64,000 nucleotides of DNA, from contig NZ_CP127162.1 of NCBI RefSeq assembly GCF_030263935.1, positions 3,605,501 to 3,669,500 of the forward strand, read 5' to 3'. Shown here piece after piece: positions 56,744-62,126 of the stretch. How positions within the stretch are numbered: position 1 is the stretch's first letter; every line of letters starts with the position of its first letter. The notes under the pieces were generated by a model, which made no database searches, was not told the DNA's origin, and worked only from the letters and a program-made list of their open reading frames with translations. The position numbers and the translations under genes are program-made. The DNA comes from Paenibacillus polygoni (GTDB lineage Bacteria; Bacillota; Bacilli; Paenibacillales; Paenibacillaceae).

Positions 56744-57040
56744 CTAGTATAGAGTCCAGTAGTCGAGTCCATTTCCACGTGTAATCGGTCCAATACTCGG
56801 CGCTAGATAACTGCTGTCTCCTAAAGGCTCCCAACCCTCAATAATAAGAATTCCACGAGCACTCGACTTGTCTTTCCATACAATAAACTGTTTTTGTTCC
56901 AGTTCCGCAAGTGCCTTACGAATTTGAGACCATGATTTCCCCGTCTTTACTTCTAATTCAGCGACCTCTGGCATTCGGCCACGCTGCCCACTAAAATTAA
57001 CTAAAATCCGCAATAGTTTACGCTCAAAATCAGGTAACAT
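56744..57040 (-). CDS. Winged-helix-like small protein in a LexA-box operon
   Basis: 98 residues. The N-terminal 70 residues look like a winged helix (FERKLLRILVNFSGQRGRMPEVAELEVKTGKSWSQIRKALAELEQKQFIVWKDKSSARGILII), followed by a loop-rich tail ending in GNGLDYWTLY. No named family recognised. The start at 57040 (MLPDFERKL) follows AAGGAG. It is second gene of the operon, 13 bp after the 68-aa gene, under two LexA-like boxes. DNA binding is inferred from the fold pattern only. Confidence 0.68.
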   Translation of the reverse strand: MLPDFERKLLRILVNFSGQRGRMPEVAELEVKTGKSWSQIRKALAELEQKQFIVWKDKSSARGILIIEGWEPLGDSSYLAPSIGPITRGNGLDYWTLY

Positions 57041-57053
57041 CCTCTTCAACTCC

Positions 57054-57260
57054 TTAGGCTGTTCGTGTTGTTGTCGTTCGTACAGGCTGATAAGCCAGCA
57101 CGTTCTCTTCATTAAAGGTACGAGGTTCATTCGTAAAAAGACATGTCGAATAAATATTTCCATTACGGATTTGATGAATTTCAATATTCCGCTGGGTTAC
57201 CTTCCCACGGCGATCTAAATATACAATTTCCACTTGTCTGCCAATATATTTACGCGGCAT
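57054..57260 (-). CDS. Small protein (68 aa), first gene of a LexA-box operon
   Basis: MPRKYIGRQVEIVYLDRRGK starts a 68-residue, basic, strand-rich protein. The middle (IEIHQIRNGNIYSTCLFTNEPRTFNEENVLAYQPV) resembles WYL/SH3-type strand order but no family is claimed. The start at 57260 follows GAGGTGACAT. Promoter and operator lie 35-65 bp upstream. Probably SOS-induced; function unknown. Confidence 0.68.
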   Translation of the reverse strand: MPRKYIGRQVEIVYLDRRGKVTQRNIEIHQIRNGNIYSTCLFTNEPRTFNEENVLAYQPVRTTTTRTA

Positions 57261-57275
57261 ATATGTCACCTCACC

Positions 57276-57289
57276 AGAACATTTGTTTG
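57276..57289 (-). promoter_or_regulatory. Second LexA-like box (weaker)
   Basis: Minus strand CAAACAAATGTTCT matches the Bacillus LexA consensus CGAACRNRYGTTYC at 12 of 14 positions. It lies just downstream of the -10 element. Confidence 0.5.
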
Positions 57290-57294
57290 CATTT

Positions 57295-57323
57295 ATTATA
57301 TAGGAACAAGTGTTCCTTTGCAA
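57295..57323 (-). promoter_or_regulatory. Promoter of the two-gene SOS-like operon
   Basis: Minus strand TTGCAA (57318-57323), exactly 17-bp spacer, TATAAT (57295-57300). The spacer is almost wholly the LexA-like palindrome, so repressor binding would block RNA polymerase. Confidence 0.78.
57303..57316 (-). promoter_or_regulatory. LexA (SOS) box inside the promoter spacer
   Basis: GGAACACTTGTTCC, near-perfect palindrome (AGGAACA-TGTTCCT), 13 of 14 matches to CGAACRNRYGTTYC; only the first base differs. Confidence 0.72.
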
Positions 57324-57338
57324 TCTCCTTATTTTTAC

Positions 57339-57387
57339 AAAAAAACACCAACCCAATCTTCCAATACTGAAGACTAGGCTGGCGTTA
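57339..57387 (-). terminator. Terminator at the end of the pilus operon
   Basis: ACGCCAGCCTAGTCTTC pairs with GGAAGATTGGGTTGGTGT (several G-U pairs), then TTTTTTT on the minus strand. Confidence 0.8.
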
Positions 57388-57388
57388 T

Positions 57389-57988
57389 TTATTCCTTATT
57401 CTTTGGGGCTGACTCGTAATAGCTGGTAAATACGATAGTAGCAGTCAATACAGGATCTGCTATACTACCTGACTCGCTTCGCTGCTGTAATGCGAATGAA
57501 TCCACCTTCATGAGTCTTGGAAGTGATTCTAATTCTTTCATAAAGCTTTCCATCTGTGACAGGGTTCCCTCCAGATCTGCATTCATCTTTATTTCGTGAA
57601 TCCGAGGATACATCGTCTCTTGTTCATTAAGCATAAGATGGAGTTCATTCTCTCCAGTAAGTTGGAAATCAATCGCTTTAAGCGTAGCTTCCGATCTTGC
57701 GGTAACAGCACGGATATCTAATATTAACTGGTCTGCCATGTCATTTTGCGGAAGTGCATCCCATTCTGGGTCTATAGAATCTTGTCCCTCCACGTTTCCT
57801 TTCAACTCGTCCAGCTTGTTTTGCAGCAGCTGCTTTTCTTCCTCGATCTGAACTAGCTCCTGACTTTGTTCATCCAACTTGTCGATGGTCGGTGAAAGAC
57901 CTAACCAATAAAAAGCAAAAACGAGAACAAAACCAAGAAGCAAAGCGAGTACGATGACAGATCTATACTTATTTATCCGCTCCATCAC
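57389..57988 (-). CDS. pilO: Type IV pilus assembly protein PilO
   Basis: Inner-membrane alignment-complex protein of 199 residues. One N-terminal membrane helix (SVIVLALLLGFVLVFAFYW), a coiled coil (DKLDEQSQELVQIEEEKQLLQNKLDELKG) and a ferredoxin-like periplasmic-type domain (LNEQETMYPRIHEIKMNADLEGTLSQMESFMKELESLPRLMKVDSF), as in PilO/GspM. It overlaps pilMN by 20 bp. It is the last gene of the operon. Confidence 0.83.
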   Translation of the reverse strand: MMERINKYRSVIVLALLLGFVLVFAFYWLGLSPTIDKLDEQSQELVQIEEEKQLLQNKLDELKGNVEGQDSIDPEWDALPQNDMADQLILDIRAVTARSEATLKAIDFQLTGENELHLMLNEQETMYPRIHEIKMNADLEGTLSQMESFMKELESLPRLMKVDSFALQQRSESGSIADPVLTATIVFTSYYESAPKNKE

Positions 57989-59528
57989 CGATCACCTCCT
58001 CCTGATCTTCCGACATCGATCCACTTGCTACTGACTCTTCGGATAGGTGTATCTCTCTGTCTAAAGAAACTTGGTATATGGCAGTGTACTGCCCGTTTCC
58101 TTGAGCTCCATCTGAAAGATTCGTTTGACGTCTAACCAGGTTCGCAATCATTGCATCCTTAACGAAAGGCATCTCTCTTAGTGAGCTCAGATATTCAGAT
58201 GCCTGTTCCATCTGCGGTGTATATATCGTAATTTCCATAGCTGAACCGTATGTATATCCAACATTTCTAAGTAATGCACCATGCGGCAAATAATGCTCAA
58301 GTTCTTTTAACATGGATACCGGACTATCTCGATACTCCCTTATCTCCTGTATCACTTCTTTACGATCAAGTGGACTAAGACCCGAGACACTTACTAACCG
58401 AAGTTCATCCTCTATACTTTGCCTCTGCTCTTGAAGTGCTATGATCCGCTGCTCCTGATTACTTATTTCCCCTTTGTTCACGATATAAAAACTTCCTGTA
58501 GCGGCTACCCCTATAATCCAGACCCCGACTAAAATCATAGCGATGTAAGGAAAGTAAAGGGCTTCTTTATCTTCTCGCGGAAAAAGGTCAATATTATAAC
58601 TTCCCGCCGATTTAAGGGCAGCGCCTGCTGCTAATCGATACTCATTATAATCTGCATTCACAGGTAACTGTGTGTCCATCCGAAGAAACGCTTCTTCTGT
58701 AACAAGAATCTCGGGAAGAGAAGTATTCAGTTCATAAGTTAATTTCTGTCTTAATTGATCCTGCCCTGTTACGATAATTTCCTCAATACGTGCCTCGCCA
58801 TCATGAAGACTGTATTGATAAAAATTAAGCATACGGGCAATTTCAGCAGAAATTTCATCTGATTTTAAGGAGGATATCTCGCCTTCCTCTCCAGCCAGAT
58901 CAAATAGACTTAAAGTACGCATGAATACCAAGTGACCTTTACGAAACATATATACATCTAAATAGGAAGCCTCTAGCTGAATGAGCATTGTCTCACCAAA
59001 CTCTCTAGACGTGCCGAACGTAATCAGCCGGGAGAGTGCTGTTCCCGAAATTTCTACGCCAGCCACTTTTAAACCCGCTTCTTCCACCACATCAACATAC
59101 GTTTGAATCACTTCACGAGGCGTTGCGAAAACAAGAATTTCCGTTTCTTCCTCTCCGGTACTCGTTACTATAGAATCATAGACCGGATGTTCAAAAGGCA
59201 GGTGCAGCCCCGTCTCTACTTCTAACTGAATAAATTGTTCTACCTGTTTTCCATTCGTGGTTGGCACAGAGAGTTTACGAATCACCATCTGTGAAGGCGG
59301 AACAGACAAGAAGACTTCCGTTCCTTTTAGCTTCTCATTTGTGACTGCTGTTTGCAGTTGTGTGTATAGGGCGTCACGATCCTGAATTTGATTCTCTTCC
59401 ATGACCCCCGGCTCTAAAGGAAGGAAAAAATGTTTTTCAATGTCCTTTGTTTTTTTCGCGAGACGGACATAGCGAATTCCGGATTGTTCAATAGAAAGAC
59501 CGGTTAATTTCTGCGTTCTGCCCAGCAT
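57969..59528 (-). CDS. PilM-PilN fusion protein of the type IV pilus
   Basis: 519 residues. Residues 1 to ~315 are PilM (actin-like: LTGLSIEQSGIRYVRLAKK, VFLSVPPSQMVIRKLSVP, LEVETGLHLPFEHPVYDSI, LRMDTQLPVNADYNEYRLAAGAALKS). Then NIDLFPRED, the cytoplasmic motif that begins PilN, a membrane helix (IAMILVGVWIIGVAATGSFYIV), a coiled coil and a PilN domain. In most species PilM and PilN are separate and bind through this same motif. The reading frame is continuous; the two are fused, not frameshifted. Confidence 0.87.
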   Translation of the reverse strand: MLGRTQKLTGLSIEQSGIRYVRLAKKTKDIEKHFFLPLEPGVMEENQIQDRDALYTQLQTAVTNEKLKGTEVFLSVPPSQMVIRKLSVPTTNGKQVEQFIQLEVETGLHLPFEHPVYDSIVTSTGEEETEILVFATPREVIQTYVDVVEEAGLKVAGVEISGTALSRLITFGTSREFGETMLIQLEASYLDVYMFRKGHLVFMRTLSLFDLAGEEGEISSLKSDEISAEIARMLNFYQYSLHDGEARIEEIIVTGQDQLRQKLTYELNTSLPEILVTEEAFLRMDTQLPVNADYNEYRLAAGAALKSAGSYNIDLFPREDKEALYFPYIAMILVGVWIIGVAATGSFYIVNKGEISNQEQRIIALQEQRQSIEDELRLVSVSGLSPLDRKEVIQEIREYRDSPVSMLKELEHYLPHGALLRNVGYTYGSAMEITIYTPQMEQASEYLSSLREMPFVKDAMIANLVRRQTNLSDGAQGNGQYTAIYQVSLDREIHLSEESVASGSMSEDQEEVIGDGADK

Positions 59529-59540
59529 AGTTAGTTCCTC

Positions 59541-60290
59541 CTATAAAATAAGTGAAAGGTATCCCTGAATGATCTCGGAACCATAGCCAAAAGAAATCAA
59601 GGTCCCAATCATCAGCCATGGGCCAAAAGGTATCGGCTGTTTGCGTGATACTCGTCCGATCAGCATCATCCCTCCTCCAATGACCGTTCCTAGGAAACAG
59701 GCAATTAGAAAAGCAAGGATCAGCTCGGGTACTCCGAGGACGAATCCGCATATCGCAAATAATTTCACATCCCCCATCCCCATTCCGCCCCGTAGAGCGA
59801 ACAGCAGGATGATGCCCCCTCCAAGCAAACCGCCAAGTACATGCTCCCACCGAGGCTGAGTAGGAAAGAGTAAAATCCCCAGTAATAGTAACGGCGCAAA
59901 GAAAAGCAAAACTTTGTTTGGAATTCTCATATATTTGAGATCAGATAGACTAACAATGACAGTCAGACTAACAAGCAGAAGGCCGATCATTCCCTCAGGT
60001 GTAACCCCAAAGCGCAAGACGATCCACAGATAGAGTAAGCCCGTAAGTATTTCTCCCGCTGGATACAAAAAAGATAAGGAATCACCGCAATACCTGCATT
60101 TTCCGCGCGATAGGAGATAGCTGATAACAGGAATAAGATCAACTGTTCGAAGTCTTGTTCCGCAATGACCGCAGCAAGAAGGCGGATTGATGATTGATTT
60201 TCCAACAGGTACTCGGAGTGCAACTACATTAAAAAAAGAGCCTAATACAAGACCAAGAACTGATACGTATATCGCAATAAAAAGGGTCAT
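59541..60290 (-). CDS. pilD: Prepilin peptidase / N-methyltransferase (PilD type)
   Basis: Aspartyl membrane protease that cleaves and methylates prepilins. About 249 residues, eight helices. The cytoplasmic zinc loop CCGHCGTRLRTVD...GKCRYCG has paired CxxC motifs (typical of the methyltransferase half). Catalytic Asp in SLSDLKYMRIPN and in GMGMGDVKLFA. ATG at 60290 preferred; GTG at 60311 is possible. It follows pilA behind a hairpin and is 12 bp ahead of pilMN. Confidence 0.9.
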   Translation of the reverse strand: MTLFIAIYVSVLGLVLGSFFNVVALRVPVGKSIINPPSCCGHCGTRLRTVDLIPVISYLLSRGKCRYCGDSLSFLYPAGEILTGLLYLWIVLRFGVTPEGMIGLLLVSLTVIVSLSDLKYMRIPNKVLLFFAPLLLLGILLFPTQPRWEHVLGGLLGGGIILLFALRGGMGMGDVKLFAICGFVLGVPELILAFLIACFLGTVIGGGMMLIGRVSRKQPIPFGPWLMIGTLISFGYGSEIIQGYLSLIL

Positions 60291-60324
60291 GGGAATCGGT
60301 TCACTTTCCACATTAAATTTGAAA

Positions 60325-60353
60325 CAGGAACCAGGGATTATCCGTGGTTCCTG
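60325..60353 (-). terminator. Hairpin between pilA and pilD (possible partial terminator)
   Basis: CAGGAACCA/TGGTTCCTG, 11-nt loop, weak T run (TTTCAAATTT). Likely limits read-through or stabilises the pilin message. Confidence 0.6.
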
Positions 60354-60428
60354 TAGGGGTGTTGAGGGTGGTATAAATCTCCTATCACCTTTTTTAGTAA
60401 TAAGAAAGACTTACTACATTTATTTTCA

Positions 60429-60881
60429 TTATGGTGTCGTTTTAACTCCAAGAATTTCAGATGCGCTATAACCATCCGTCTTCCCTTTACCAGGTGGATC
60501 TAATTTCACTCCAGTTAAATTACCATGTTCATCAAAGGAAACAATAGTGGTTTCTTCGTTCAACTTCACCTTGCTACTAGGCAGAGCAATATTTTTTTCA
60601 ATAAAGTTATTACTTTGTAGTACACCAAGCTTCACCGTATTTACAGTGGTAAAATCTCCGTTTTCCTCTCCAATAACATACAATCTTGCCGCATCATAAA
60701 TTTGACGCGCAGTAGCGAGATCACCATCTTCCTTCGAATTATCAATTACATTACCGATCAACGGAATAGCAATAACCGCGATAATAGCCAAAATAACAAT
60801 AACGGCGAGCAACTCGATCAATGTAAAACCTTTCTCATCTGCGAGTCTTGCTTTTCTTGCTTTCAGTGCTTGTGTTAACAT
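60429..60881 (-). CDS. pilA: Type IV pilin (major prepilin, PilA-like)
   Basis: 150 residues. An 18-residue basic leader ends DEKG and the mature chain starts FTLIELLAVIVILAIIAVIAIPL with Glu5 conserved, the class III signal cut by PilD. The C-terminal domain has no cysteines, so no disulfide staple. It is flanked by pilC and a hairpin plus pilD. Behind GGAAGGGG. It is the only pilin in the window; further minor pilins may lie beyond. Confidence 0.9.
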   Translation of the reverse strand: MLTQALKARKARLADEKGFTLIELLAVIVILAIIAVIAIPLIGNVIDNSKEDGDLATARQIYDAARLYVIGEENGDFTTVNTVKLGVLQSNNFIEKNIALPSSKVKLNEETTIVSFDEHGNLTGVKLDPPGKGKTDGYSASEILGVKTTP

Positions 60882-60920
60882 GGTAAATCCCCTTCCATAC
60901 TCTTATTTGTTATTTAAAAT

Positions 60921-62126
60921 CTACATATTTCCGTAGATACTGAACATCGGCAGCATAATTGACGCTACGATAATACCAACCACACCCGCTAAAAAAGCGA
61001 TAAGCAGGGGTTCTAGCAAAGACTTCATCCGATCGACTGTATTCTCTACATCCATCTCGTAAAAGTCAGCAACCTTCTCCAGCATCTGATCGAGGGACCC
61101 TGTCTCTTCTCCAATCGCAATCATCTGTGTAACGAGCGGAGGAAATACCCAAGCTCTTTTTAACGGTTCGGATAAAGGCTTCCCCTGACGAAGTGAATCC
61201 CCTGCGCTGTGAATGTATTTTCCGATGACTTTATTCCCTGAGATATCTTCAACAATAGCCAAAGCCTGCAATACAGGCACGGAACTTGCATACAAGGAAG
61301 CAAACGTCCTTGTAAACTGAGCAATGGAACCTTTTTGATTCAACTTGCCAAATACAGGTACCTTCAGTTTGAGGTAATCCAGCAGATAAGCCCCTCGCTC
61401 GGTACGTTTACACACCTGATAAAGTATGATCATCAGCAGAACGCCCAGTAGCCAGAAGTACCACTGACGCTGGATGCTGTTACTGAGCATAAGAACCATC
61501 TGTGTAATCACCGGAAGCTCCGCATCCATGGACTCAAACATCGTGACGAACTGAGGAACAATCGCCCACAGTAAATATACAACAGCTGCAATTGCCATAA
61601 TCCCCACTGTAAGTGGATAGGTGAGCGCTGATTTGATCTTTTCGGTTGTACTGTGCTGTTTCTCGTAATAGATTGCAAGCCGATCAAGCGTTCCTTCTAA
61701 ATCACCTGCTTCTTCACCCGCCCGGATCATACTGACAAATAAAGGCGGGAATATGCGCTTATGATCCTGCACGGCTTGTGAAAACGATATCCCTCTCAGC
61801 AGACTCGAATTTACATCAAACAATGCTTTTTTCAGCGGTTTGCTCTCCGTCTGTTCCGTAAGAATCTGATTGGCATCAACAATGGATACACCTGCCCGAA
61901 TCAGCGTGGCAAATTGTCTGCAATAAATAATAAAATGAATCGGTTTTACCGGATTTCCAATATAAATATCCATCTGTAAAATGGTTTGCTTCGTTTCCTC
62001 TAACGAGAACACCGTCACATCTCGTTTACGAAGTTCTTCCATGGCCGTCTTTTTGTCTGCAGCACCCAGTTTGCCGCGGATCTGTTTCCCACGATTAGTC
62101 TTAATTACATATTCAAATTGTTTCAT
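60921..62126 (-). CDS. pilC: Type IV pilus inner-membrane platform PilC (GspF family)
   Basis: 401 residues with two repeated GspF domains, each before membrane helices (FCRQFATLIRAGVSIVDANQIL... and FTRTFASLYASSVPVLQALAIV...), with paired GEEAGDLEGTLDRLA and GEETGSLDQMLEKVA motifs. An N-terminal cytoplasmic domain (FEYVIKTNRGKQIRGKLGA) is present. It overlaps pilT by 4 bp (ATGA). Confidence 0.92.
   Translation of the reverse strand: MKQFEYVIKTNRGKQIRGKLGAADKKTAMEELRKRDVTVFSLEETKQTILQMDIYIGNPVKPIHFIIYCRQFATLIRAGVSIVDANQILTEQTESKPLKKALFDVNSSLLRGISFSQAVQDHKRIFPPLFVSMIRAGEEAGDLEGTLDRLAIYYEKQHSTTEKIKSALTYPLTVGIMAIAAVVYLLWAIVPQFVTMFESMDAELPVITQMVLMLSNSIQRQWYFWLLGVLLMIILYQVCKRTERGAYLLDYLKLKVPVFGKLNQKGSIAQFTRTFASLYASSVPVLQALAIVEDISGNKVIGKYIHSAGDSLRQGKPLSEPLKRAWVFPPLVTQMIAIGEETGSLDQMLEKVADFYEMDVENTVDRMKSLLEPLLIAFLAGVVGIIVASIMLPMFSIYGNM

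Follow-up and report, generated by a model that had tools for sequence, protein, structure and literature searches.

A predicted LexA-controlled operon of Paenibacillus encoding a putative stand-alone WYL-domain protein

Introduction

What controls a pair of small genes whose promoter appears to be filled by LexA-type boxes, and what would their products do? The pair lies on the minus strand of a 64,000-nucleotide stretch of the Paenibacillus polygoni genome (contig NZ_CP127162.1, positions 3,605,501 to 3,669,500; hereafter the window) and encodes proteins of 68 and 98 amino acids (aa), which we call P1 and P2. A preliminary description of the window had taken them for a LexA-repressed operon of undescribed function, and the conservation of the boxes across related loci now supports that view. 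From comparison of these loci we conclude that the P1-P2 operon is almost certainly under LexA control, with LexA binding predicted at the boxes, and that P1 is, judged by its sequence, a free-standing WYL domain with probable affinity for single-stranded DNA (ssDNA). The whole reading, a LexA-repressed SOS operon in which P1 would be an ssDNA-binding accessory for lesion bypass, we regard as evenly balanced between right and wrong.

Gram-positive SOS regulons are known largely from a few model species. In the open-licence literature searched, we found no account of a stand-alone WYL protein under LexA control; what is new is the combination and the LexA control, the kinds of protein themselves being known. 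WYL domains are described as ssDNA sensors of LexA-independent damage responses (PafBC, DriD; PMC11804915). Papers are cited here by PMC number, each for the portion of its text that was available.

Results

LexA-type boxes at the promoter

The minus-strand promoter reported in the preliminary description, TTGCAA and TATAAT separated by 17 nt with one LexA-type box in the spacer and another just after the -10, was recovered both by direct reading and by tools, as were the two open reading frames (ORFs) that follow it (57260-57054 and 57040-56744, 13 nt apart). The features are as follows, in window positions.

57318..57323, minus strand: -35 hexamer TTGCAA (promoter scan and direct reading)
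57303..57316, no strand: LexA-type box 1, GGAACACTTGTTCC, filling the promoter spacer; position kept in orthologues
57295..57300, minus strand: -10 hexamer TATAAT (promoter scan; all 62 two-box loci have a similar hexamer between their boxes)
57276..57289, no strand: LexA-type box 2, CAAACAAATGTTCT, just downstream of the -10
57267..57272, minus strand: ribosome-binding site GAGGTG of P1 (read from the sequence)
57054..57260, minus strand: P1, predicted 68-aa stand-alone WYL-domain protein (Sm/SH3 beta-barrel)
57050..57055, minus strand: ribosome-binding site AAGGAG of P2, overlapping the P1 stop (read from the sequence)
56744..57040, minus strand: P2, 98-aa winged-helix protein of predicted LexA N-domain fold, with a C-terminal YWTLY tail
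57344..57386, minus strand: hairpin resembling an intrinsic terminator, separating the operon from the pilO-like gene upstream

The match of 13 in 14 positions claimed earlier holds for box 1 in plus-strand reading against the consensus CGAACRNRYGTTYC. Each box has two mismatches to CGAAC-N4-GTTCG; the core GAAC-N4-GTTC is perfect in box 1 and carries one mismatch in box 2. Sites with at most two mismatches to the longer pattern number 22 in the window against 18.2 expected, the core occurs 68 times genome-wide (true and chance sites unsorted) against 98 for the reversed control pattern, and the hexamer scan found two promoter-like sites against 3.6 expected. The promoter hexamers alone prove nothing, and the string match of a box alone is not beyond chance; position plus conservation exceeds chance.

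That conservation was followed in three sets of P1 loci (L numbers are ours). In the genus set 29 of the 30 best-matching loci have a box whose core departs from the pattern at no more than one position, the exception (L029, which is L078 of the named set) having P2 and YolD in pieces. The named-genome set comprises the best 80 of 90 confirmed loci; it overlaps the genus set, and many of its species are closely related, so that its loci are not independent. Here a box (up to one core mismatch allowed, no more than 110 bp from the P1 start) is present in 75 loci, with a perfect core in 46 and two boxes in 62, compared with 3.3% of 15,537 random windows from the same loci and 20 of 375 regions upstream of other ORFs. 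The two boxes are most commonly 23 bp apart (34 loci), then 27 bp (9 loci), and the commonest letters of box 2 across the 62 loci read CAAACAAACGTTCT, with T next commonest at position 9. Between the boxes, all 62 loci have TATAAT with at most one mismatch, and 56 have it exactly; length-matched segments of shuffled upstream DNA give 19% and 1.7%, respectively, and random places 8.7% and 0.5%. The geometry noticed in the window is therefore a conserved feature. The class-level set holds 91 loci outside the order, the higher-scoring of 152 matches (E up to 6e-15), and overlaps the named set by about four loci (L142, L143, L144, and L156 are apparently L098, L112, L107, and L109). Within a 160-nt window, 84 of the 91 have a box, 60 a perfect core, and 28 two boxes, against 5.2% with a box and 0.6% with a perfect core in random windows. 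Loss of the box upstream of orthologues had been named beforehand as grounds for dropping the LexA proposal; the box is conserved at 75 of 80 and 84 of 91 loci. Among the repressors known to us, only LexA fits such breadth.

The window's genome encodes one LexA. Its lexA promoter (L119) has AGAACAATTGTTCG among five box-like sites, two with perfect cores; recA (L132) carries CGAATGTATGTTCT, with one core mismatch; and a polY-yolD-SRAP operon (L120, G000:C1:3574500-3578500) lies under AGAACATGTGTTCT, with a perfect core. The third gene of this operon we take, from its sequence, to encode an SRAP-like protein. We note that the L120 arrangement matches the polY-small-subunit-SRAP associations discussed in the available text of PMC12926913. 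In Aneurinibacillus thermoaerophilus (L102, 3338-4186) about 20 nt separate lexA from the P1 gene behind it, and one genome of this species has two copies of lexA followed by a stand-alone WYL gene (L102; L098, the same as L142).

P1 as a predicted free-standing WYL domain

The profile of the P1 family (A5) matches chains of the Pif1 helicase in their C-terminal WYL part (8bnv, E 2e-7; 8bns, E 2.8e-6) and also PafBC (E 0.0017). Foldseek with P1 returned PafBC or BrxR in all of its first ten rows (E 0.007-0.022); the VIA-align rows are a second look at these matches and leave room for families not listed. The predicted model is a five-strand small beta-barrel without a long helix (an Sm-like SH3 barrel). 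Nothing follows the WYL core, and the class-level relatives, at 54 to 100 aa, are of a length at which the domain stands alone. R464 and R495 of DdPif1, which contact ssDNA (PMC9964779, available portion), align to R24 and R47 of P1, both invariant in 57 of 57 relatives; position 40 is Cys in 50 of the 57. Among the relatives PF13280 (WYL) is matched by 31 of 51 at E up to 1 and by 27 of 57 at 0.01, and of six tested singly two reach the cut-off (L042, L107) and two give no match. One database labels a relative 'WYL domain-containing protein', and an NCBIfam search named nothing of note for P1. By these comparisons the nearest sequence relative of P1 is the WYL domain of Pif1 helicases.

Two other assignments were rejected. 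P1 begins at the barrel, lacking the N-terminal arm of YolD; the family-model search gave no PF08863 (YolD) match for P1 or its relatives, hhalign of P1 against YolD profiles gave none, and YolD was ruled out on the missing profile match. As for a defence gene, PADLOC gives P1 only a weak match (E 7e-4), which falls at the end of a model for a reverse transcriptase that bears a WYL domain. In a separate observation, P1 of Paenibacillus sp. An7 (L036 4001-4177; also L011) is about nine residues shorter in mid-barrel and has lost the conserved Cys, with frame and boxes kept.

P2 as a LexA-type winged helix

The winged-helix character suggested for the second gene was confirmed and can be narrowed: structure and sequence comparisons match P2 in fold and colinear sequence to the N-terminal domain of LexA, and we assign it to that fold by comparison. 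Pfam LexA_DNA_bind falls below cut-off on P2 (3 of 34 relatives match at 0.01), TIGR00498 (LexA) scores 18.6 bits against a cut-off of 110.95, and PADLOC gives weak CasR matches. P2 has no C-terminal self-cleaving and dimer domain; it ends in a conserved tail, YWTxY, and residues 70-93 and 95-97 of its model are under a pLDDT of 50. The recognition helix is variable (mean entropy 2.06 bits versus 0.96 for helix 1) and is not the SSSTVHGHL or SSSTVHSHL common to four LexA rows. Boxes are kept in 25 of 28 P1-only loci and in 15 of 15 P1-YolD loci. P2 is thus not the regulator that the boxes serve, and as a repressor binding them it was ruled out on this ground and on its varying helix.

Operon partners of P1

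The 80 named loci comprise P1 alone (28), P1-P2 (22), P1-YolD (15), P1-P2-YolD (14), and P1-YolD-P2 (1). Counting as YolD any YolD-like frame on the same strand within 1.2 kb downstream, YolD follows P1 in 30 loci, P2 follows P1 in 37, and P1 is without P2 in 43; among the class-level loci P2 is found in 8 of 91 and YolD in 17, leaving 83 without P2. When nine third-gene candidates were compared with PF08863, seven passed the cut-off, L107 fell below it, and L092 had no match. Some of the counted P2 or YolD copies are split over frames or shortened (L076, L078, L090, L093, L104, and L108), so that a few may be decaying. YolD and a Y-family polymerase are both encoded in 75 of 75 genus genomes.

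Several arrangements stand apart from these counts. A second operon of the window's genome (L121, G000:C1:3275500-3278500) comprises P2 and then a YolD frame, without P1, and its tandem boxes each carry one core mismatch; its YolD copy may be broken or decaying, as start-like codons lie in another frame. The gene behind P1 in L092 (4191-4661) is similar at its beginning to the N-terminal arm of YolD, and a separate YolD-like frame comes after it; this gene resembles the arm-only small subunits in the available text of PMC12926913. A frame for the LexA N-domain only directly precedes the WYL gene in two Aneurinibacillus-like genomes, L154 (about 76 codons) and L155 (1265-1483; internal stop), and such a frame follows the WYL gene in L138.

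Distribution, phage copies, and neighbourhood

P1-like matches occur in 73 of 75 genus genomes; in the sampled genomes P1 was found in 315 of 392 of the Paenibacillus order (38 of 49 genera) and in 189 of 398 of the class, 37 of these 189 belonging to the same order. This width rests on the genome searches; the protein search gave close relatives only. A plasmid search yielded eight records. For Paenibacillus larvae phages, P1 is in 20 of 21 phage records and P2 in 20 records, several of which are duplicates of one phage. In the two phages examined, Willow (L128) and BN12 (L129), both P. larvae Fernvirus, P1-P2 are found close to the integrase, with a single small gene in between. Both boxes of Willow (AGAACGAATGTTCC and AGAACAAACGTTCT) have a perfect core, and of the BN12 boxes (CAAACATTCGTTCT and AGAACAAGCGTTCC) one is perfect and one has a core mismatch. 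One phage record annotates its P1 copy as a putative YafY-type regulator. The phage genes are possibly accessory genes of the lysogeny stage that the host's SOS response controls. Immediately upstream of them, Willow carries a YolD-like gene as well.

In the window, a cluster resembling type IV pilus or type II secretion genes (57389-62126) lies directly upstream of the operon; its pilO-like gene (57389-57988) was named by Pfam and the others by eye. The hairpin scan found one terminator-like hairpin against 0.6 expected in shuffles. Elsewhere in the genome, further near-palindromic LexA-like boxes stand near uncharacterised ORFs in L122 (968), L123 (1045, 1197), L124 (902), and L001 (1500), and these ORFs are candidates for further SOS genes.

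Discussion

The closest known counterparts of P1 are the WYL domains of the Pif1 helicases (TePif1, DdPif1, SsPif1): each is a single WYL domain without wHTH (winged helix-turn-helix) or WCX, among PDB chains they match the P1 family best by sequence, and the two ssDNA-contact arginines are common to both. In Pif1, however, the domain is a C-terminal helicase module, whereas P1 is a separate protein under predicted LexA control. The damage and defence regulators PafBC, DriD, CapW, and BrxR share the WYL fold with P1, and a winged helix adjoins P1 as P2 in 37 of 80 loci; yet those are single chains of the order wHTH-WYL(-WCX), while here WYL and wHTH are separate genes and WYL is often alone. 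Furthermore, PafBC and DriD are placed outside LexA control in the available text of PMC11804915, whereas the P1 operon would have LexA on top. YolD/YqjX (PF08863) is LexA-controlled and belongs to a WYL-like SH3 superfamily (PMC6511836, PMC4012209, the latter placing YolD in the WYL superfamily), and it shares the operon of P1 in 30 of 80 loci, but P1 differs in its missing arm and the absence of a detectable profile match. P2 in turn resembles the LexA N-terminal domain in fold and colinear sequence and differs in having no peptidase/dimer domain, a conserved tail of its own, and a different, variable recognition helix.

We suggest the following model. LexA would cover the spacer between -35 and -10 when on box 1, and the start region when on box 2, switching transcription off. 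RecA on ssDNA would trigger self-cleavage of LexA, and P1 would then accumulate, with P2 or YolD where present. P1 probably binds the ssDNA that raised the alarm, via the conserved R24 and R47, and it may mark or hold this ssDNA at gaps and stalled forks and assist the SOS-induced Y-family polymerase and its YolD subunit in translesion synthesis. P2, with its linear YWTxY tail, would serve as an optional accessory that binds DNA or a partner. Being so often alone, P1 must work on its own or with products of other loci, and its recurrence next to YolD points to the PolY-YolD lesion bypass complex as the best candidate partner; that P1 acts with this complex we propose tentatively, at somewhat short of an even chance. 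A paper by Permina and colleagues of 2002 reportedly dealt with an SOS-linked YolD. YolD has been proposed as the UmuD counterpart in a PolY-YolD-RecA mutasome (PMC6511836; also PMC12926913), a Pol V-like assembly of Gram-positive bacteria, and variant small subunits sharing only the N-terminal arm, together with SRAP-like subunits, are reported in the available text of PMC12926913.

A number of observations weigh against this model. As to the fold, the narrower P1 profile (A2) matches WYL chains weakly (7tb5, 0.072), and the family-model search found no PF13280 match for the window's P1. That protein keeps two of the five DdPif1 contact arginines, the other three positions (T43, N50, and N53) not being basic; position 50, which by spacing is the second of an arginine pair needed in PafBC, is Arg or Lys in only 18 of 57 relatives. 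As to the partner, YolD is lacking at 50 of 80 named loci, including that of the window, and the genome's own polY-yolD is about 87 kb from the P1-P2 operon. With the own polY as query, a Y-family polymerase was found in the flank (up to 4 kb) at one of 80 loci (L087), on the opposite strand, and as an operon member it was ruled out. The role of YolD-type subunits is itself unproven: loss of yqjX had no clear effect on PolY2 mutagenesis in B. subtilis in the available text of PMC13335488. As to control, no box was found near P1 in five of the 80 named loci (L098, L102, L078, L105, and L112) or in seven of the 91 class-level loci (L142, L143, L154, L155, L162, L163, and L205). L098 and L102 come from one genome and lie directly behind lexA, the boxes of L102 preceding lexA and L098 being cut inside it; L078 has P2 and YolD as fragments, we can offer no explanation for L105 and L112, and in L154 and L155 the boxes stand before the frame for the LexA DNA-binding domain (DBD) instead.

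The main rival holds that P1 and P2 are a split ssDNA-sensing transcription factor, P2 binding DNA and P1 acting as the WYL sensor, in a second tier under LexA like that of PafBC or DriD. The pairing of wHTH with WYL is standard for regulators (PMC6789036, available portion), P2 has the LexA N-domain fold and follows P1 in the P. larvae phages as well as at 37 of 80 named loci, and frames for the LexA DBD alone precede the WYL gene in L154 and L155 (the latter with its internal stop) and follow it in L138. P1 is nevertheless without P2 in 43 of 80 and 83 of 91 loci, the recognition helix of P2 varies, there is no WCX domain, and in L121 P2 accompanies a YolD frame without P1, so we consider a split factor unlikely. 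If it were true, LexA derepression would build a second sensor of persisting ssDNA, with LexA targets or the PolY-YolD mutasome as possible targets; the joint claim that P1 is a widespread SOS gene of Bacilli and forms, with its LexA-fold neighbour, a split factor switching or retuning further genes seems to us rather unlikely. It is quite improbable that P2 (and P1) tune LexA, P2 competing at or near LexA operators and helping to restore repression: P2 has neither form of the LexA recognition helix, and loci with P1 only are common (28 of 80).

String matches of the quality of these boxes are common, and five of 80 and seven of 91 loci have none, as one would expect if the boxes arose by chance or served another repressor and the operon lay outside the SOS response. 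The conserved position and geometry (75 of 80 and 84 of 91 loci, against 3-5%), the similar boxes of the genome's own lexA and polY-yolD, and the persistence of boxes where P2 is absent make this very improbable. Small, tightly controlled SOS genes are often division inhibitors or toxins, and phages carry P1. Nonetheless, an SOS cell-division inhibitor (an analogue of YneA or SosA) or a phage-type toxin is very improbable in view of a predicted five-strand barrel that has WYL relatives and whose recognised operon partners are YolD, P2, or LexA. Of the roles offered in the preliminary description, the repair accessory or regulator fits the WYL/Sm fold and the LexA-type winged helix; the division checkpoint finds no support in the predicted beta-barrel.

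On our preferred reading, of P1 as an ssDNA-binding SOS accessory, the operon is an uncharacterised branch of the bacterial DNA-damage response. P1 is a small gene without a named function, common in the order and the class, with LexA-type boxes at nearly every locus opened, and it offers a small and cheap target for the question of what the Gram-positive mutasome consists of. A free WYL domain inside the LexA regulon and beside YolD would join two damage-sensing systems that have been treated as separate.
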